DNA of 64,000 nucleotides from Thermomicrobiaceae bacterium (GTDB lineage: Bacteria; Chloroflexota; Chloroflexia; Thermomicrobiales; Thermomicrobiaceae): contig JADBJL010000114.1 in assembly GCA_014874455.1 (NCBI GenBank), positions 1 through 64,000 on the forward strand. The letters are read 5' to 3'. The position numbers were made by a program, and so were the translations under genes. The notes under the pieces were generated by a model. That model searched no databases. It was given only the letters and a program-made list of their open reading frames with translations, and was not told the origin of the DNA. Positions 25,199-34,720 of the stretch are shown here, one piece after another (position 1 is the first letter of the stretch; each line of letters begins with the position of its first letter).

Positions 25199-26401
25199 TT
25201 AGGGGAGCCGGCGCTCGATCGGCTCCCGCACGTCGCGGCCGTCGGGCACGACGGGCTCGGTACCCGCCGCACCGGCGCGATCATCGGTCTCCGCTGCTCC
25301 ACTGCGCGGGCCGATCGCCGCGCTCGGGGCGACAGTGAGGCCGACTTGCGCATTGCGGTCGAACGCGGCCAGTCGTGCGCGGTTACAGCGGACACGCACC
25401 CGCGTACCCGGAGAGATGTCGACATACGAGGGTTGGCTGGTCTGAAGTTGCACGCCGCATGGAAGTTGCACCAGGTAGACCGTCTCCGGCCCCTGGAACT
25501 GTCGCGCGAGGACGACGGCGATGCCCTCGGGGTCGGCCTCCAGCGACACGTCGCGAGGGCGCACGAGAAGTTCGACCAGTTCAGGCGCGCGCGCCCTCGC
25601 TTCGAACGCAAACCGCCCGAGGTCGGACTCGGCTAAGACGCCGTTCAGGCGGGCCGGGACGAAGGTGGCCTGGCCGACGAACTGTGCCACCGCACGGTTC
25701 ACTGGGTAATGGTAGACCTTGTCAGGCGCATCCACCTGCTCGATGTGGCCGGAGAGCATGACGGCCACGCGGTCGGCGATCGCCATCGCCTCCTGCTGGT
25801 CGTGGGTGACCAGGACAGCGGTGATCTGGAGGCGCTCCAGCAAGCGGCGCAGTTCAGTGCGCATCTGCAGGCGGAGTTCGGTGTCGAGGTTAGAGAATGG
25901 CTCGTCGAGCAACAGCACCTGAGGGCTAGGCCCGAGCGCGCGGGCGATCGCGACTCGCTGCTGCTGACCGCCGGAGAGCTGGTGCGGGTAGCGCTCACGC
26001 ACGTCCTGCAAATCGGTGAGCCGGAGGAGTTCCTCTACCCGCTGGCGGCGTGCCGCCCGCGAGAGGGAACCGAGGCCGAAGGCGATGTTCTCGGCCACCG
26101 TGAGGTGTGGGAAGAGCGCGTAGTCCTGGAAGACCATGCCGACCCCGCGCCGCTCCGGAGGCACGAAACGGCGCTCGTCCGCCACGACGTGCCCGTGCAG
26201 GGCTACCGTACCGGCATCCGGGCGCTCGAAGCCGGCAATGAGCCGTAGCGTCGTGGTCTTGCCACAGCCGCTGGGGCCGAGCAGTGCCAGGATCTCACCG
26301 CGGTGGACGGTGAGATCGAGGTCGCGTACGGCCGGTCGCTCGATACCTGGATAGCGTTTCCAGACACCGGACAGCTCGATCGCTGGCTCGATGCTCCGCA
26401 T
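25199..26401 (-). CDS. Iron ABC transporter ATP-binding protein (FbpC/PotA-like)
   Basis: 400 aa. Walker A GPSGCGKTT, Q-loop VFQDYALFPHLTV, signature LSGGQQQRVAIARAL, Walker B VLLLDEPFSNLD and H-loop VTHDQ are all intact in the first ~230 residues. The C-terminal ~170 residues form a TOBE-like regulatory region (LVRPRDVSLE) with a polar tail. It powers the fused permease encoded just upstream. Substrate assignment to Fe(III) comes from its partners and from the iron-type operator of the operon, since the ATPase itself resembles many CUT1/POPT family members. Last gene of the unit; 38 nt separates it from the permease gene. Confidence 0.88.
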   Translation of the reverse strand: MRSIEPAIELSGVWKRYPGIERPAVRDLDLTVHRGEILALLGPSGCGKTTTLRLIAGFERPDAGTVALHGHVVADERRFVPPERRGVGMVFQDYALFPHLTVAENIAFGLGSLSRAARRQRVEELLRLTDLQDVRERYPHQLSGGQQQRVAIARALGPSPQVLLLDEPFSNLDTELRLQMRTELRRLLERLQITAVLVTHDQQEAMAIADRVAVMLSGHIEQVDAPDKVYHYPVNRAVAQFVGQATFVPARLNGVLAESDLGRFAFEARARAPELVELLVRPRDVSLEADPEGIAVVLARQFQGPETVYLVQLPCGVQLQTSQPSYVDISPGTRVRVRCNRARLAAFDRNAQVGLTVAPSAAIGPRSGAAETDDRAGAAGTEPVVPDGRDVREPIERRLP

Positions 26402-26439: not shown

Positions 26440-28137
26440 CTACCAGTTGGAGCCGGTTGCTCTTGTCTGCCTTTCTCCACCGCCGGACACCGGCGTACCG
26501 GCCCACTCGGTCGGTTGCTGTCGCCACAAGAGGATGGCCATCGGCAGCGCTGCGACCAGGAAGAGGAGGAACGCCGGCAGAGCGGCGTGTGACCAGAAGA
26601 GCTCGCGGGTGGCGTTCCAGACCTCGGTGGCCAGCGTCTCGTAGCCGATCGGGCTCAAGAGCAAGGTGGCAGGCAGTTCCTTCATCGTCGTCAGGAAGAC
26701 CAACGCGCCACCGCTGGTGATGCCGGGCCAGAGCAGCGGCGCGGTGACGCGCAACCAGACCCTCAGCGGCGAGTGCCCCAGGCTCCGGGCAGCCTCTTCC
26801 ACGTGCGGGCTGACTTGGAGCAGTGAGGCGCGCACGCTCCCGACTGCTTCGGGGAGGAACCGGATGAGGTAGGCCAGCAGGAGCATGGCGAGCGTCTGGT
26901 ACAGAGGAGAGAGATAGCGCGCGCCGAAGGATACCAGCGCTAACGCCGTGACGATCCCTGGTAACGCGTAGCTCACCCAGAGCGGGAATTCGACCAGGCG
27001 GCCGACCCAGCCGGAGTAGCGAACCAGGAGCACGGCGATCGGGAAGGCGGCGGCGACCGAGAGCGCTGCAGCGAGCAGCGAGACGGAGGTCGAGTGCCAG
27101 GCTGCCCGCCAGGTCAGAGCTAACGGGTTGCCGCTCTGCAGCGCCTGGACGACCCAGTACCCGATGACCGCGAGCGGCGTGCCCAATGTCAGCAGGGCCA
27201 GACCGCCGCAGTAGGCGAGACCGACCGGTGTCCAACGGCCCAGTCGAACCCGACGCGGCGGGCGTGAGGCTCCTGAGCTGCTGCGATGGTAGCGGTGGGG
27301 GCCACGCCAGGCACGATCGACGCCGACGATGACGAGCGTGAGGGTTGCCAGGACGAGCGCTAACCCGGCTGCGCCGCTACGGTCGAAGGCCAGCCGGTAC
27401 TGGTTGTAGATCACGCGAGTAAACGCGTCGTAGTTGAGCAGCGAGACAGCCCCGAAGTCGCTGACGACATACAGCGCGGTAAGGAGCGCGCCCGACGCCA
27501 TCGCGGGGCGAAGCTGGGGCAGCGTGATCCTAAGGAAGGTGCTCCACGGGCCGTGACCGAGGGAGCGGGCTGCTTCCTCGAGCGCAGGGTCGAGCGAGCC
27601 GATGACCCCGCGGAGTGAAAGGTACATGTAGGGGTACGTATAGAGCGTGAGCACGAGCCAGGCGCCGGTAAACCCGTAGATCTCGGGGAGCCGCTCGACG
27701 CCGAAGAGCGGCTGGAGCAGCCGTTGGAGGGCGCCGCGTGGCCCGAATGCGGCTACCACCGTGAATGCCCCGACGTAGCTCGGCACGGCGAGCGGCATTG
27801 CGGCGACGACCGACCACAGTCGTCGCGCTGGCAAGTCGGTTCGGGTGGTCAGCCAGGCGAGGGGAAGCGAGAGAACTGCACTGCACCCGGTGACCGCGGC
27901 GGTCAGGACAAGTGTGTTCTGGATCAGGTCGAGGGTGCGACCACGCCAGAGAGTGGCGAGTGTCTGCTCGCCACCCCCCAGCGCGCGCACCACGAGGTAG
28001 ACCAATGGGATCAGCGAAAGCGCTGCCAGACTACCGGCCGGCGCCACGATGAGCGTCGGAGCGCCGAGGCGGCCATACCACGGTCGCCTTCTGGCCTGCT
28101 TCGTCCGAGCCTGCGCCTTGCCGATCCCGATCGCCAT
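26440..28137 (-). CDS. Ferric iron ABC transporter permease, fused two-domain (FbpB type)
   Basis: 565 aa from ATG 28137 (MAIGIGK); longer frames only extend into the preceding gene's end. Twelve membrane helices fall in two homologous halves. Each half carries an EAA loop: EEAARSLGHGPWSTFLRITLP and EEAARSLGHSPLRVWLRVTAP, the coupling helices that dock on the ATPase. Single-chain fused permeases are the rule for Fe3+ FbpB/SfuB/FutB transporters. It moves iron released by the binding protein across the membrane. It starts 19 nt after the binding protein gene ends. Confidence 0.9.
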   Translation of the reverse strand: MAIGIGKAQARTKQARRRPWYGRLGAPTLIVAPAGSLAALSLIPLVYLVVRALGGGEQTLATLWRGRTLDLIQNTLVLTAAVTGCSAVLSLPLAWLTTRTDLPARRLWSVVAAMPLAVPSYVGAFTVVAAFGPRGALQRLLQPLFGVERLPEIYGFTGAWLVLTLYTYPYMYLSLRGVIGSLDPALEEAARSLGHGPWSTFLRITLPQLRPAMASGALLTALYVVSDFGAVSLLNYDAFTRVIYNQYRLAFDRSGAAGLALVLATLTLVIVGVDRAWRGPHRYHRSSSGASRPPRRVRLGRWTPVGLAYCGGLALLTLGTPLAVIGYWVVQALQSGNPLALTWRAAWHSTSVSLLAAALSVAAAFPIAVLLVRYSGWVGRLVEFPLWVSYALPGIVTALALVSFGARYLSPLYQTLAMLLLAYLIRFLPEAVGSVRASLLQVSPHVEEAARSLGHSPLRVWLRVTAPLLWPGITSGGALVFLTTMKELPATLLLSPIGYETLATEVWNATRELFWSHAALPAFLLFLVAALPMAILLWRQQPTEWAGTPVSGGGERQTRATGSNW

Positions 28138-28156
28138 CGCACCCCGGCATGTCGTG

Positions 28157-29332
28157 CTAGAGTAGCCCCACGTCCTGCAGGAGGGCAAGCGTGCCCTGAA
28201 GGTCGTCCAGATCCGACAGATCGATATCCGGTGTCTGGATCTCTCCCAGTGGCACCAGTGCCGGGCTCGGCGACACATCATCGATCAAGGGATACTCGAA
28301 CGTCTGCTCCGCGAAGTACCGCTGTGCCGCCGGGGTCAGCAGATAGTCCACCAGTGCCCTGGCCTGCTCCTGATTGCGCCCAGAGGCGAGGATTCCGACG
28401 CCCGCGACATTGATCAGCGCTCCAGGATCACCGTTGCGATAGAAGTAGTTCGCCGCTGGGAGATCTCGCCCCGCCTGCGACTCCTCGCGCAGCAGATAGT
28501 AATGGTTGACGAACCCTGCCAGTATTTCTCCAGCGATCGTGGCTCGCACGATCGCGGTGTTGTTCTCGTAGGCGCGGGTGCCGAGCGCCTTGAGCCCTAC
28601 GAGCCAGGAGCGGGCCGCATCGTCGCCGCGGAGCACACGCAGCGCGGTGACGAAGGCTTGGAACGATCCGTTCGTCGGCGCCCAACCCAGCTTGTCGCGC
28701 CACCGCTCGTCGCCGGGGAAGTCGAGGATAGATGCCGGGATATCGGACTCGGTGAGCTGGTCGGTATTGTAGACGACGGTTCGAGCGCGGCCGCTGATGC
28801 CGACCCACAGCCCCTGCCGAGAGCGGAACCGTGGCTCGACCCGCTCGAGCAGGTCGCTATCGAGTTCGATGAACCGCCCCTCGCGCGCGAGTGCGCCGAG
28901 CGCGCCAGCGTCCTGCGCAAAGAATAAATCAGCCGGGCTCTGTCCGCCCTCTTCGAGGATCGCGGCGGCCAGCTCGGCGGTGTCGCCGTAGCGGACGCGG
29001 ACGTCGATCCCCAGCGCGCTCTGAACCTGATCCATGAGTGGCCCGATCAGGCTTTCGCTTCGCCCCGAGTACACGGTGAGCGAGCCGCCCACGGTTCCCC
29101 TGGCCACCGGGGTGACGGTCGCGGCCGCCGCTGGCGACGGGGACGCTTGTGCCATCGGCGTCGTCGCACCCGTTGCAGTCGGCTCAGGCGGCGCTCCTGT
29201 GCCGCCAGCGGCGGTCGGCGTCGGGTTCGACCCACTCCCACTACACGCCTGCAGCAGCGGGAGGGCAGTGCCGGCCGCCAGCGCGGCAGCGACCGACCGC
29301 AGGAAGACTCTTCGGTTCACCCGGGACTGCAC
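28157..29332 (-). CDS. Ferric iron-binding lipoprotein of an ABC transporter (FbpA/FutA type)
   Basis: GTG 29332 is preferred because GGAGGAAGGG precedes it; 391 aa. The N-terminus NRRVFLRSVAAALAAG resembles a twin-arginine signal and ends in a lipobox LLQAC, so a Tat-exported lipoprotein is likely. A Thr/Pro/Ala linker follows. The mature protein shows the family pattern: LTVYSGRSESL at the first strand, VVYNTDQL, and GFVNHYYLLREE with the consecutive Tyr pair that ligates Fe(III) in this family. It would capture ferric iron outside the membrane and deliver it to the fused permease. First gene of the transporter operon, directly behind the palindrome-controlled promoter at 29432-29485. Confidence 0.9.
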   Translation of the reverse strand: MQSRVNRRVFLRSVAAALAAGTALPLLQACSGSGSNPTPTAAGGTGAPPEPTATGATTPMAQASPSPAAAATVTPVARGTVGGSLTVYSGRSESLIGPLMDQVQSALGIDVRVRYGDTAELAAAILEEGGQSPADLFFAQDAGALGALAREGRFIELDSDLLERVEPRFRSRQGLWVGISGRARTVVYNTDQLTESDIPASILDFPGDERWRDKLGWAPTNGSFQAFVTALRVLRGDDAARSWLVGLKALGTRAYENNTAIVRATIAGEILAGFVNHYYLLREESQAGRDLPAANYFYRNGDPGALINVAGVGILASGRNQEQARALVDYLLTPAAQRYFAEQTFEYPLIDDVSPSPALVPLGEIQTPDIDLSDLDDLQGTLALLQDVGLL

Positions 29333-29431: not shown

Positions 29432-29485
29432 AATCCCGACAACGTTAGTCGGGATTATCCTAAGGGGCCGAAAGCAGGCTGTCAA
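29432..29485 (-). promoter_or_regulatory. Promoter with abutting palindromic operator, iron ABC operon
   Basis: Minus strand: TTGACA (29485-29480), 17-nt spacer, TAGGAT (29462-29457). Directly after the -10 comes a 25-bp palindrome, AATCCCGAC - seven bases - GTCGGGATT on the plus strand (29432-29456), with perfect 9-bp arms. A bound protein would cover the start point, so repression is expected. The same arrangement occurs at 34667-34720 ahead of the FTR1 operon. Confidence 0.75.
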
Positions 29486-29509
29486 GGGCCGGCGGTGCAG
29501 CGCGCAACG

Positions 29510-29953
29510 TCACCGGTGCGCTCCGATGGCGCGCAACAGCTCGATCAGCTCGGACGCACGCTTGTCGACGTCGGGAGCCGGGCGCCGCGCCTGGACGAGG
29601 GTGTGGAGTTCCTCGATCGCGCGGTCGATCTGCGTGCGCTCCGGTTCCGGTACTTCGGCTCGCACAGCCTGCCACTCGCTGCGCACGTGCTGGATGTCTG
29701 CCAGTGCTGCCTGGTATTCGCTCTGCATCACCACCTGGCCATCGCGCACGACGTCGGGCGTATAGTGCGAGATCCGCAGGACGTCGAGCTGGATCGTCAT
29801 CGACGCGACCGCCTGCGCGAGCCGCTCCTCGGCTGGCGGCCTGGTCGCGGATCTGACCCACAGCCCGCCGGCGGCCAGCAAGGCAAGCGTGGCCAGCGCG
29901 ATCGCTGCCTTAGCCCAGAGGGGGAAGCGGCGCTTCGGGCGGTAGACGACCAT
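29510..29953 (-). CDS. Small single-pass membrane protein, unknown function
   Basis: 147 aa from ATG 29953. A short basic N-terminus (YRPKRRFPLW) precedes one hydrophobic helix (about 15-33), so the rest (35-147) is probably outside. That part is polar and mostly helical, with Glu/Arg heptad-like stretches (EERLAQAVASMTIQLDVLR, QSEYQAALADIQHVRSEWQ). I do not recognise the family. It starts 10 nt after the hydantoinase-family gene and is the last gene of the FTR1 operon. An extracytoplasmic helical protein next to FTR1 could be an accessory subunit, but nothing in the sequence proves it. Confidence 0.7.
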   Translation of the reverse strand: MVVYRPKRRFPLWAKAAIALATLALLAAGGLWVRSATRPPAEERLAQAVASMTIQLDVLRISHYTPDVVRDGQVVMQSEYQAALADIQHVRSEWQAVRAEVPEPERTQIDRAIEELHTLVQARRPAPDVDKRASELIELLRAIGAHR

Positions 29954-29963
29954 CGCTCGCAAT

Positions 29964-32081
29964 TCACCGTCGGACGAGGCTGGTGCCGACCAGCACGGCG
30001 ATCGGCTCGCGGGCTGCTCCATCCAAGCTGAGCGAGTCCAGGTCGAGCGAGAGCGGCCCCCAGTCAGGCACGTTGAGACAGCGCGGGCCCTGGACGATTA
30101 ACACGTTCGGCCGTACCGCATACCAGCGTGCTCCGGAGCTGCCGAACTCCCGGAGCTGCTGCTCCAGTGCCTCGGGCGCGCTGTTCAGATAGGCGCCGTC
30201 GTCAGCGACGAAGCGCACCATGCCCTCGCGGTCGATCACCGCCAGCCGGCGTCGGCGACGGAACGGCCAGAAGCTTCTCCCCATCTCGGCCTGGAAGACC
30301 CGGTAGAAGCCGTTGTCGAAGACCAGCGTCAGGGTCTCCGGGCGCACCCGCAGGGCCTGGGCAGCCAGCGAGCGCGCGATCGCGAGGTCGACGTCGCCGA
30401 GGCGGCTGCCAGTCGCCCCCTGGCAGGTGCCGGCCGCACGCAGGCGGACGGCCGCGCGCTCAGGGATTGGCTCGACGGTGACCTGTACGGTCTTCGGGTC
30501 GGCCCCGTAGCGGACAACCACTTGCTCCAGCTCGCGCACCCATTCCAGGAGCCGCGCAGGCTGGCCCGGGCTGAGGCTGCGCTCTACCTCGGCGCTGATC
30601 GGCGCGAGCGCGACGCCGATCGAGGAGATCACCTCGGCGTGAGGGACGATCTGGTAGTCGACTCCTAGGCGATCGGCCAGCACCGGCACGAGCACGGCTG
30701 CGCCGCCGCCGAGTCCGAGCAGGACGGGGCGCCGCAGGCGGTACTCCCGCACCAGATCGCGCAGGAGCGGCTCGACTTCCTTCGCGGCCTCGTCCAGGAT
30801 CAGCCGCGCGGCACGCTCGACCGGGATACCGAGCCGCTCGGCGAGTGGCGCGATGGCTCGTCGAGCTGATTCCTGGTAGCCACGCGCGTAATCGCCTTCA
30901 GGTACGAGCCCGAGGACGTTCGCCGCCTCAGTCAGCGTGATGGCGTAGCGCCGTCCCTCGTCGTCCACGAGGGCCGCGTAGTCCTCTGGGTCGCCAGGCC
31001 GTGGGGCCAGCGTCACTAGCCGGAGGTTCGAGAGCATCTCGGGCGGGGTGAAGCAGGGATAGGGCAGGCCGGCGATGTGGGCGCTGCGGGGCCCGACACC
31101 AGCTATCTTGCGGCCTCTCAAGCGCACCAGGCTGCCGCCTGCCACTCCGGCAACGCGGACATCCACCGAGCGCAGGCAGGTCGGGTGATCCATAATGCGG
31201 ACGTACTTCATCACCGGGCGGCCCTGGCGAACCACGCCGACGTTCGTGCTGGTGCCGCCCACCTCCATGAAGAGCCCGTCGAGCAGCTTGTGGTAGAGCA
31301 AGGCTCCGGCTACGCTGGCGGCTGGGCCGGACAGGATCGTCGAGGCGGCGACCCGGCGTGCCTCTTCCAGCGGGCTGACCGCGAAGTCGCCGTGCATGAT
31401 CATCAGGGGCACCTGCAGGCCGCTGGCCGTGAGGCTCTGCTCGACCCACCGGGTCGTCTCGGCCATGCGCGGCAGGATGCTCGCGTTGACCGCCGCGGTG
31501 AGTGTGCGCACCTCCAGGCCGTAGAGCCCGCTCATCTCATGGCCGGCGGTCGCCGGGAGGCCAAGGGCCGTCGCCGCGTCCAGAACCGCTCGCTCCGGTT
31601 CAGGATCTTCCACGCCGTACGCCGCGCTCACCGCGATGGCCCGCGCCCCCTGTGCCATGAGCGTCCGCAGGGTATCAGCGATCCGCTCCTCGTTGAGTTC
31701 CTCGGCATCCAGAAAGGCGTGGAACACTCGCAGGCGGCGCTCGGGCGTCAACTGGATCGAGTCGATCCTGGTTCGCCGGAACGCTTCCTTGCGGTTCGCC
31801 TGCTGGCCGATGCCGACGATGCCGACGGGGGCGACGTCGCCCTCGAGCAGGGCGTTGACGGCCTGTGTCGTGCTCAGCACGACGAGCTCGATGCTTCTGG
31901 CATCGATCCCGGCCCGTTGTACGAGCGACCTGAACGCCTCGACCAGACCGCGTGCCACGCCCTCGGGCGCGTGATGCGTGGTTGGAACGGTCACTTTGCC
32001 GACGAGCGCGCCTGAGGCGCTCTCGATGGCGACCGCCTTGGTGAATGTCCCTCCGACGTCGATGCCGACCCTGATACCCAC
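29964..32081 (-). CDS. Hydantoinase/oxoprolinase family protein (HyuA-like)
   Basis: About 705 aa. The start is uncertain: GTG codons at 32081, 32093 and 32099 are all possible, and 32081 puts the conserved VGIDVGGTFTKAVAIE near the N-terminus. This phosphate-binding motif and the central MEVGGTSTNVGVV (adenosine/phosphate motif of the actin-like ATPase fold) define the family. HyuA-type proteins hydrolyse ATP to open cyclic amides such as hydantoins or 5-oxoproline, usually with a HyuB partner; some relatives are carboxylase subunits. No HyuB is seen nearby. The tail (FWPFRRRRRLAVIDREGMVRF) is unusual for the family. It sits 16-28 nt after the FTR1 gene in an iron-controlled operon, so its substrate may be connected with iron acquisition. 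Confidence 0.82.
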   Translation of the reverse strand: MGIRVGIDVGGTFTKAVAIESASGALVGKVTVPTTHHAPEGVARGLVEAFRSLVQRAGIDARSIELVVLSTTQAVNALLEGDVAPVGIVGIGQQANRKEAFRRTRIDSIQLTPERRLRVFHAFLDAEELNEERIADTLRTLMAQGARAIAVSAAYGVEDPEPERAVLDAATALGLPATAGHEMSGLYGLEVRTLTAAVNASILPRMAETTRWVEQSLTASGLQVPLMIMHGDFAVSPLEEARRVAASTILSGPAASVAGALLYHKLLDGLFMEVGGTSTNVGVVRQGRPVMKYVRIMDHPTCLRSVDVRVAGVAGGSLVRLRGRKIAGVGPRSAHIAGLPYPCFTPPEMLSNLRLVTLAPRPGDPEDYAALVDDEGRRYAITLTEAANVLGLVPEGDYARGYQESARRAIAPLAERLGIPVERAARLILDEAAKEVEPLLRDLVREYRLRRPVLLGLGGGAAVLVPVLADRLGVDYQIVPHAEVISSIGVALAPISAEVERSLSPGQPARLLEWVRELEQVVVRYGADPKTVQVTVEPIPERAAVRLRAAGTCQGATGSRLGDVDLAIARSLAAQALRVRPETLTLVFDNGFYRVFQAEMGRSFWPFRRRRRLAVIDREGMVRFVADDGAYLNSAPEALEQQLREFGSSGARWYAVRPNVLIVQGPRCLNVPDWGPLSLDLDSLSLDGAAREPIAVLVGTSLVRR

Positions 32082-32109
32082 GGCCCGCCTCACTCGCACG
32101 CTGGCCCGT

Positions 32110-33393
32110 TTATCCGGCCCCCGTCCCCTGACGTCGCCAGGTTCCGGCCCCGCGCGGCTGCCACCAGAAAGCGTAGAGCCAGGCGGCCAGGTAGACCAGG
32201 AGGAGCAGGCTCTGCGCCGCCACCGTCTCCAGGGTCGCGTGCAGCCCCAGCAGGTCGGCCAGGAACCGGTTGAAGCGCGGGAACGAGTCACCCAGCAATG
32301 TCATCGGGATCGTCCCGATCTGTTGCAGCTCCCAGACGGCGTTGCCGAGGAGCCCGACCGAGAGGAGCATGATGACGGCTACCGCGACGCCGAGAAAGGC
32401 CCGCAGCGGCAGCCGGGCGCCGAGAGCGATGATCGCCCAGCCGATGACGCTCAAGGTCAAGATCGCCAGGCCGATGCCCAGCACGATCCAGAACTCGAGC
32501 CGCTGGGCGATCAGCAGCAGTGCCTGGTAGAAGAGTGCCGTCTCCGCTCCCTCCCGGTAGACCGAGACGAAGCCCAGAGCCGCGATGGCACCGGTGTTGC
32601 CGACAGCCACCGCGTCCCAGACCCGTGCCCGCAGGAACTCCATCCACCGGCGGACATCGAGGCGGCGCAGCAGCCAGAAGCTGATGTAGAACATCAACCC
32701 GACGGCGAGGAGCGAGACCAGCGCTTCGAGCACCTCACGGCCGATCGGTGCCACGCGCAGCACCCAGTTCAAGACGAACCAGGTAAGGACACTGGCCGGG
32801 ATCGCCAGGCCCGCGCCCCACCACAGCGGGCGTCGCAGCGCTGGGTTCTGGGTCTGGATGTACCCCAGGATCGCGGCCAGCACCAGAATGACCTCGAGGC
32901 CCTCGCGGAACAGGATCGAGAACGAGGCCACCATCACCAGCGTCGGGGCGACCAACCCTGGCCCCTCGAAGAGTGCCTCCACCTCGTCGAGGCCCCGCTC
33001 GAGCTCCTGGACCGTGGCGTTGACCTCGGCGGCGGGTGCGCCGGCCTCGATCTGGTTGCGCCACTCGGCGAAGCGGTACTCCAGCTCGAGCGTGAAGTTC
33101 GGATCGATCACGCGCAGCGGGATCTCGACCAGCTCGAAGTGGTCGAGATACGCCTGGCGAGCCAGCCGGAGGGCAGTCTCGGAGTCGCCGACCCGGTAGG
33201 CTTCCTGGCTCTGCCGCATCAGCTCACGGATTGCGGCCAGCTCTCGCTGCACGTCCACCTGCGGCTCCGCGGCTCGCGCGACCGGCGAGGCCACCCCGTT
33301 GAGGAGCACGAAGAGCGCTGCCACCGCGAGCAGGGCAAGCAGGCGTCGCAGCGAGACCCGGGAAGCGCGAGGCACGAGGCTGTCGATCGTCAT
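32110..33393 (-). CDS. FTR1-family high-affinity iron permease (EfeU-like)
   Basis: 427 aa. A signal-like helix (17-37) is followed by an extracytoplasmic helical module (about 51-142), then seven membrane helices. The two REGxE iron-transport motifs are present: REGLE (163-167, FREGLEVILVL) and REGAE (280-284, YREGAETALFY). Their Glu residues pass iron through the membrane. In EfeUOB and related systems the permease works with an extracytoplasmic iron-binding or oxidising partner. Here the partner gene overlaps by ATGA, and its last ~90 residues are homologous to this protein's N-terminal module. Second gene of the operon. Confidence 0.93.
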   Translation of the reverse strand: MTIDSLVPRASRVSLRRLLALLAVAALFVLLNGVASPVARAAEPQVDVQRELAAIRELMRQSQEAYRVGDSETALRLARQAYLDHFELVEIPLRVIDPNFTLELEYRFAEWRNQIEAGAPAAEVNATVQELERGLDEVEALFEGPGLVAPTLVMVASFSILFREGLEVILVLAAILGYIQTQNPALRRPLWWGAGLAIPASVLTWFVLNWVLRVAPIGREVLEALVSLLAVGLMFYISFWLLRRLDVRRWMEFLRARVWDAVAVGNTGAIAALGFVSVYREGAETALFYQALLLIAQRLEFWIVLGIGLAILTLSVIGWAIIALGARLPLRAFLGVAVAVIMLLSVGLLGNAVWELQQIGTIPMTLLGDSFPRFNRFLADLLGLHATLETVAAQSLLLLVYLAAWLYAFWWQPRGAGTWRRQGTGAG

Positions 33394-34544
33394 TGCAGAA
33401 CCTCCAGCGCGTGGTCGAGCTTACCGCTGATCTCGTCGACGAGCGCCTGGAGCTCCTCCGGTGGCCGTCCCTGGCGGATGCCGTCGCGGAGCTCCTTGAA
33501 CTGGAGCTCCAGCTCTTCGACGAACTCCCGCTCACCTCGCTGGATCAGGTCGCCCTCGATCGTCTCGAAGCCTTCCAAATAGGCATCCGCTGCCAGGTCG
33601 TAGGCCTCGTCCTGCTCGCCACGGGCGTAGGCATCGAGCGCCTGCTGCATCAGCGCCTCGATCTCGGCGATCGTCTCGGCCGGGCCCTTCGGCTCGGTGG
33701 TGGCGAGCTGGAGCGCCTTGGCCAGCTCGGCCCGCACCTCGCCGACCGCTTCGTTGACTTCCTCGGGTGAGGCCGGTGCCTGGCCGGGCTGGACAACGAA
33801 GGTACCGAAGACACGATCGAGTTCGGCCAGCTCGTGCTCGATCTCCTCGGCTGCTTCGCTCGATGCGGCCTGCACCTGCGGTGCGATGTCCGAATAGAGC
33901 TGGCTGGCCACGGTGAAGAATCCCCAGGCATCCTGGTACTCGACGAGCTCGACGAGTTGGCCATCCTGAACCGCCTCGCTGTACTCGTGCTCGGCGGACT
34001 CGAGGAGGTTGCGGATAAGCTCTGCCCGGAAAGCGGGGTCGTTCCAGCTCTCGCCAGCGACGGCTTCCATCGTCTCGCGAGTCTGGGAGACCGCGGCCTG
34101 GTGAGCCTGCTGGTAGTCGCTGGCCTGGCTCTCGACCGCTTGCCGGTAGCGATCCAGCGCCTCGCGCAGTGGCTGCGCCAGGCCGCGCTCGGTGAGCGGG
34201 CCCTCGACCTGCTCCCAATACTCGGCGACTGGATGGCCGGCATGGGCTGCAGCGAAGCGCCAGTTCCCAGCCTCGATGCTCGCCGCGCTCGCTTCCAGGT
34301 GGCCCCAGATCTGCGCGAGCGCGCCGGCCAGTTCGAGCGTCTCCTCATCGACGGTGGTCGCCGGAGTGGCGGCCGGCGATGGAGGAGCAGGGGCCGTCGG
34401 TGTCGATGGTGCGGATGTCGGTGTGTCGACCGGTGAGCTCGATGGCGCCGACTCGGCCCCGCACGAGCTGAGCAAGAGGACGACGGCAGCGGCAACGATG
34501 CTCTGGGTCAGTCGCCTGAGCAGACACTGCCCGGCATGCGACAC
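33390..34544 (-). CDS. Iron-uptake partner lipoprotein of FTR1 (EfeO-like role)
   Basis: 384 aa, GTG start with GAGGGAGG upstream. Signal peptide ends in lipobox LLSSC (Cys28). A Ser/Thr/Pro linker (31-63) leads to helical domains. The first (about 66-250) contains HAGHPVAEYWEQVEG (101-115), a His/Glu-rich helix that could bind metal. The last (291-384) repeats the module found at the N-terminus of FTR1. It has no cupredoxin or heme motif, so it is not a classical EfeO/EfeB, but location and co-translation point to the same role: capturing iron for the permease. First gene of the operon behind the palindromic operator at 34667-34691. Confidence 0.8.
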   Translation of the reverse strand: MSHAGQCLLRRLTQSIVAAAVVLLLSSCGAESAPSSSPVDTPTSAPSTPTAPAPPSPAATPATTVDEETLELAGALAQIWGHLEASAASIEAGNWRFAAAHAGHPVAEYWEQVEGPLTERGLAQPLREALDRYRQAVESQASDYQQAHQAAVSQTRETMEAVAGESWNDPAFRAELIRNLLESAEHEYSEAVQDGQLVELVEYQDAWGFFTVASQLYSDIAPQVQAASSEAAEEIEHELAELDRVFGTFVVQPGQAPASPEEVNEAVGEVRAELAKALQLATTEPKGPAETIAEIEALMQQALDAYARGEQDEAYDLAADAYLEGFETIEGDLIQRGEREFVEELELQFKELRDGIRQGRPPEELQALVDEISGKLDHALEVLQ

Positions 34545-34666
34545 GCTCCACTCCCTCCCTCAACAACCGGCACGCTCCACGTGAGCGGCCCGGACACCAG
34601 CAGCTCGACTGCAGCAGGCGCGCCTGAGGCATTGAGGCGTAAAATCGAACCCGGCTCGCTGTCGCA

Positions 34667-34720
34667 AATCCCGACTACATTAGTCGGGTTTAGAATAGCG
34701 ACGTGTCTCGCGCCTGTCAA
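34667..34720 (-). promoter_or_regulatory. Promoter with abutting palindromic operator, FTR1 operon
   Basis: Minus strand: TTGACA (34720-34715), 17-nt spacer, TATTCT (34697-34692), then a 25-bp palindrome (34667-34691): AATCCCGAC, seven bases, GTCGGGTTT on the plus strand, with eight of nine arm positions paired. It matches the element at 29432-29456 at nearly every base and has the same position relative to the -10. Confidence 0.75.

Follow-up and report, generated by a model that had tools for sequence, protein, structure and literature searches.

Two 25-bp palindromes in the window, the 64,000-nucleotide stretch of Thermomicrobiaceae DNA analysed here, are probably operators of an IscR-type, Fe-S-sensing Rrf2 protein, most likely the one that the same genome encodes on contig C87, whose holo form would repress two iron importers. 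One palindrome precedes a ferric iron ABC importer operon, with the gene encoding the ferric-binding protein followed by those encoding the permease and the ATPase, and the other precedes an FTR1 operon (Table 1). Both promoters show the TTGACA-N17 form on the minus strand and, in each, the first base of the palindrome is located directly after the -10. A sequence-only reading of this DNA had reported both palindromes, with limits that are exact to the base, and its proposal of an operator common to two iron-uptake operons, which would mask the start point when occupied, agrees with the abutment of both palindromes on the -10.

Table 1. Operators, promoter elements and genes of the two iron-import operons, with positions in the window
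Feature	Position	Strand	Basis or remark
Operator 1, 25-bp palindrome, IscR type-1-like	29432-29456	.	AATCCCGACAACGTTAGTCGGGATT; directly 3' of -10
Operator 2, 25-bp palindrome, IscR type-1-like	34667-34691	.	AATCCCGACTACATTAGTCGGGTTT; directly 3' of -10
fbp promoter, -35 TTGACA	29480-29485	-	Sequence; 17-bp spacer
fbp promoter, -10 TAGGAT	29457-29462	-	Sequence; geometry kept in relatives
FTR1 operon promoter, -35 TTGACA	34715-34720	-	Sequence; 17-bp spacer
FTR1 operon promoter, -10 TATTCT	34692-34697	-	Sequence; geometry kept in relatives
FbpA-type ferric iron-binding protein, ABC importer	28157-29332	-	Pfam SBP_bac_6; best PDB match 7w3w, E 8.6e-82
FbpB-type permease, two BPD_transp_1 domains	26440-28281	-	Pfam; true start inside open frame
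FbpC-type ATPase with TOBE domain	25199-26401	-	Pfam
Lipoprotein, FTR1 operon gene 1	33390-34544	-	Sequence resembles part of FTR1 protein
FTR1/EfeU iron permease	32110-33393	-	PF03239, 4e-21
Hydantoinase/oxoprolinase A-like protein, FTR1 operon gene 3	29964-32291	-	PF01968, PF05378; true start inside open frame
170-aa protein, last FTR1 operon gene	29510-30022	-	Position kept in relatives

The lipoprotein encoded by the first gene of the FTR1 operon shows no Pfam or NCBIfam match; its orthologues are similar to the FTR1 protein of the window by blastp, and we infer an EfeO-like role for it. The FTR1 permease scores below the cut-off of the EfeU/Ftr1 NCBIfam models. The hydantoinase/oxoprolinase A-like gene is found in the same order in the FTR1 operons of relatives, and the 170-aa protein encoded by the last gene shows no Pfam match. 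Both genes (29510-32291) remain FTR1-linked across the Thermomicrobiaceae.

The consensus of the Thermomicrobiaceae sites, AATCCCGACTAAATTAGTCGGGATT, agrees with the Escherichia coli IscR type-1 consensus, ATASYYGACTRWWWYAGTCRRSTAT (PMC3899308), in 21 of 25 positions and, within the type-1 core SYYGACTRWWWYAGTCRRS, in all 19, a core match reached by chance in 12 of 200,000 random palindromes. Taken individually, the cores of operators 1 and 2 match the E. coli consensus in 16/19 and 18/19 positions, respectively. By comparison across relatives, the 25-bp element is most likely the binding site of an Rrf2/IscR-family Fe-S sensor, not of Fur or IdeR. The site sequences bear out the earlier view that the operator is of neither the Fur nor the IdeR type. 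The suggestion that its recognition may be new is not upheld: the site is of the IscR type-1 kind, and also shows the GAC-N7-GTC arrangement of the Myxococcus xanthus RisR site.

In the 3.37-Mb genome, the full motif with up to two mismatches is present only at the two window sites, and the reversed-pattern control gave none; this genome was scanned by pattern and not by matrix, and weaker sites were possibly missed. The loose core CCCGAC-N7-GTCGGG with two mismatches gave 527 matches versus 619 for the reversed control, and is useless in a genome this rich in GC. A match with three mismatches on contig C100 was taken as chance: it is near the contig end, ahead of and overlapping short frames, and no iron gene adjoins it. 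At the sequence level, the motif is not found mainly inside genes or ahead of non-iron genes, a distribution that the sequence-only reading had named as contrary to its proposal: both window sites precede iron genes and, wherever a target could be identified in relatives, it was nearly always an iron-uptake or Fe-S gene.

Among 200 relatives scanned, the motif was found in most Thermomicrobiaceae genomes and in few others. Within this family, the site is present at every readable fbpA promoter (16/16, two further orthologues being left out because contig ends cut their upstream DNA) and at every readable FTR1 promoter (13/13). A matrix was built from Thermomicrobiaceae promoter sites only. The fbp loci of six genomes (G004, G008, G009, G014, G016 and G019) and seven FTR1 loci had escaped the strict pattern and were outside its training set, and all of them score at least 24 bits; for the site of a distant fbp-like operon in G007 the score is 20.8 bits. 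Counted from the initial T of a TTGACA-like -35, the palindrome begins 27-32 bp further on at 27 of the 28 family sites, and the 28th shows a spacing of 30 bp on the other strand; at the few contig-end sites the promoter itself decided the orientation, and their spacings are therefore not independent. Other targets in relatives are Peripla_BP_2 genes (L048, L049, L061 and L064), which are typical of siderophore or haem uptake, and a gene encoding an imelysin (L047). A putative Rrf2-type operator is present on most or all iron-uptake operons, those of fbpA, FTR1 and Peripla_BP_2, which is a RirA-like way of working. Family sites also precede nitroreductase-like genes (L045 5996, with a similar protein at L069 68), whose products are possible ferric or flavin reductases of the iron regulon. 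The sites at L042, L055, L057, L058, L070 and L071 show no clear target, several of them because they face a contig end.

The clue that best links a cognate regulator to its operator is autoregulation. The matrix was run over 80 named loci encoding relatives of the Rrf2 protein of this genome, with a site defined as one of at least 12 bits and no more than 300 bp upstream of rrf2. Such sites were found in 13 of the 79 loci with upstream DNA versus 6 of 2436 control windows (Fisher 2.5e-16), and most of these six control matches are at sufC/sufB junctions. All 13 Rrf2 proteins with an upstream site show the YLEQ helix and three Cys, the presence of the helix being partly due to selection, since the loci were fetched by conserved peptides that include it. 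Independently of the matrix, scanning 400 Chloroflexota genomes by pattern shows rrf2-suf or rrf2-iscS promoter sites in G063, G172, G181, G213, G270, G314 and G338 (G270 and the frameshifted rrf2 gene of G314 were judged by eye) and a site ahead of sufU in G206. The scan of 200 relatives shows another rrf2-sufC-sufB site, in G067. The palindromes AAACCGAC...GTCGGTTT of G229 and G485 were rejected, as they resemble terminators or repeats and not operators. Dormibacterota-like genomes have IscR-type sites, scoring 14-25 bits, between sufC and sufB (L202 7262, L205 7277 and L211 2154), and not ahead of rrf2 alone.

The genome contains two Rrf2 genes, one on contig C87 and one on contig C46. The iscR-like gene of C87 is upstream of iscS and encodes a 146-aa protein with the type-1 recognition residues E43 and Q44 and the cluster cysteines C92, C102 and C108. 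The nearest named records belong to a Thermomicrobiaceae MAG (99% identical) and to Thermalbibacter longus (89%). This protein stays below the NCBIfam cut-offs of the IscR equivalog (96.3 bits, cut-off 207.55), the RirA equivalog (56 bits, cut-off 193) and CymR (135.7 bits, cut-off 195), and differs from CymR, which has no cluster Cys, in having three. His107 is the fourth cluster ligand of E. coli IscR, and an Arg takes its place in the C87 protein (alignment by eye, with the E. coli sequence as reference). A Glu8 is present where Streptomyces NsrR has Asp8, which binds the cluster (PMC5411485). Because of these two replacements, the cluster chemistry of the C87 protein may differ.

Three Fur-family genes are present in the genome, and one of them is the first gene of its suf operon (L079, contig C109). 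In Thermomicrobiaceae this operon contains the fur-family gene, then sufC and sufB, with a divergent NifU/SufU-like gene (L079 1492-3345 on G000:C109, L120 and L280). The fur-suf and iscR promoters of the genome lack the full palindrome and show canonical Fur-type boxes, GAGAATNATTCTC. They share TTGACGAATCCCGATC...GTAAGGT, with the half-site AATCCCGA in the spacer and then GAGAATCATTCTC or AGAATGATTCTC, whose sequence is that of a Fur-type box, an arrangement kept in genera g1 and g6. The half-operator AATCCCGA, which may be a weak Rrf2 contact, lies inside the 17-bp spacer at L016 1290-1360 (iscR) and L079 1410-1475 (fur-suf) and is likewise kept in g1 and g6. Fe-S assembly in this genome looks to be under Fur control, with a possible weak contribution of Rrf2. 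The window, which contains both iron operons, shows no GAGAATNATTCTC-like Fur box at up to two mismatches.

Several other proteins were considered as owners of the palindrome. That a Fur-family protein binds it, such as the product of the first suf operon gene, is very improbable; iron-uptake genes are commonly Fur-repressed and one of the three Fur-family genes is suf-linked, but the Fur-type box GAGAATNATTCTC of the fur-suf and iscR promoters is quite unlike the palindrome CCCGACTAANNTAGTCGGG, and the Fur protein of contig C15, whose gene adjoins a znuA-like gene, is probably a Zur. Because the fur-suf and iscR promoters carry Fur-type boxes, Fur would have a different target and the palindrome would not be a Fur site. 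Slightly less improbable, and still highly so, is an IdeR-like iron repressor of the DtxR family, encoded on contig C38. The genome has a single clear gene of this family, and in Actinobacteria iron uptake is under DtxR/IdeR repression; the C38 protein, however, is closest to the MntR model of NCBIfam (TransRegMntRTherm, 251.9 bits, below the cut-off of 350; DtxR model, 112). The IdeR/DtxR box is a palindrome of the TTAGGTTAG type, which the operator does not resemble by inspection, and in other Chloroflexota the matrix points to rrf2-suf promoters and not to dtxR genes. The least probable owner is the second Rrf2 protein, that of contig C46, whose gene adjoins one encoding a hemerythrin-like protein: it belongs to the right family and has three Cys, but its recognition helix, NYLGKIL, lacks E43/Q44, unlike every Rrf2 whose gene carries the palindrome (13 checked), and the genes around its own suggest a role in nitric-oxide response like that of NsrR. 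Fur, MntR/DtxR and the C46 protein are all judged to be unlikely regulators. Fur and DtxR/IdeR were the families named in the sequence-only reading, which had not considered the Rrf2 family; the most likely regulator is instead the Rrf2/IscR-like protein of the genome.

The ancestral IscR site could also have been taken over in Thermomicrobiaceae by another, unrecognised protein, which we regard as about as improbable as ownership by Fur. Autoregulation is degenerate in the family: the rrf2 promoter of this genome has only a degenerate site, with the half-site AATCCCGATC in the -35/-10 spacer, and the rrf2 promoters of genera g2 and g4, like those of three genomes from the wider order, showed no site. 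Since the site is degenerate here and absent in g2 and g4, autoregulation is not kept in Thermomicrobiaceae. Some incomplete family genomes, moreover, show no detectable C87-type gene. Seven MAGs lack a strong match, G012 (91% complete) and six others (54-87%); most of them have sites or iron operons, and the congeners of all except G007 have the gene. The less complete family MAGs are mostly without a detectable copy, beyond what completeness would suggest. The degenerate autoregulation, the MAGs that lack a strong match, the scores under the model cut-offs and the Arg at the His107 position all count against the C87 protein as regulator. Against such a takeover, 13 of the 14 Thermomicrobiaceae genomes that are at least 90% complete contain a C87-type gene, with an unchanged recognition helix.

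If the C87 protein is the regulator, then under sufficient iron and Fe-S its cluster would be present and the holo dimer would occupy the 25-bp site just 3' of the -10, covering the start point and thus preventing, by occlusion, the fbpABC-like operon and the FTR1 operon from being transcribed. Under iron or Fe-S shortage, or with oxidants, the cluster would be lost and the importers derepressed, as cluster loss under iron shortage lifts repression by RirA and by Rhodobacter IscR (PMC6748827, PMC4618611). We infer which protein binds, what type of cluster it has and in which direction the operons respond. The system resembles that of E. coli IscR in a palindrome of 25 bp whose core and centre are the same, in sites that overlap the promoter, in the E43/Q44 helix, in the three Cys and in a gene that adjoins iscS. 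It differs in that the Thermomicrobiaceae targets are iron importers and not isc, in the Arg for His107 together with a score under the IscR equivalog cut-off, and in that the genome lacks a complete site for autoregulation. The general iron-uptake repressor of Rhizobiales, RirA, likewise belongs to the Rrf2 family and probably has an Fe-S cluster (PMC6748827, PMC10510648), but its operator is the IRO box and not an IscR type-1-like site, it belongs to a different phylum, and the C87 protein falls far under the RirA model cut-off. Rhodobacter sphaeroides IscR is a cluster-bearing IscR-type repressor of iron-uptake genes with a promoter-overlapping palindrome (PMC4618611); its site, however, is a 19-bp Iron-Rhodo-box resembling the RirA box, and it has a single Cys versus three in C87. 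M. xanthus RisR (PMC9973013) is a three-Cys Rrf2 protein with a GAC-N7-GTC palindrome over Fe-S operon promoters, but controls isc and suf, and a general iron-uptake regulon is not seen in the passages covered.

A type-1-like site as general iron-uptake operator in Chloroflexota was not found in the literature searched, nor was anything on point about iron regulators of this phylum; RegPrecise has a Chloroflexi collection, which may contain an earlier IscR regulog prediction. A concrete regulator and operator are thus proposed for iron uptake in a phylum without any in the literature searched, and the system suggests that Fe-S sensors came to control iron import more than once outside Alphaproteobacteria. 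The sites are strong and simple, suited to a direct binding or reporter assay, and cultivable relatives exist, in Thermomicrobium or Thermalbibacter. The chances seem to us about even that, in Thermomicrobiaceae, an Fe-S-sensing Rrf2 protein replaced Fur/IdeR as general iron-uptake repressor, independently of RirA, while Fur moved to Fe-S assembly. If true, the usual targets of Fur and Rrf2 regulators would have been exchanged.
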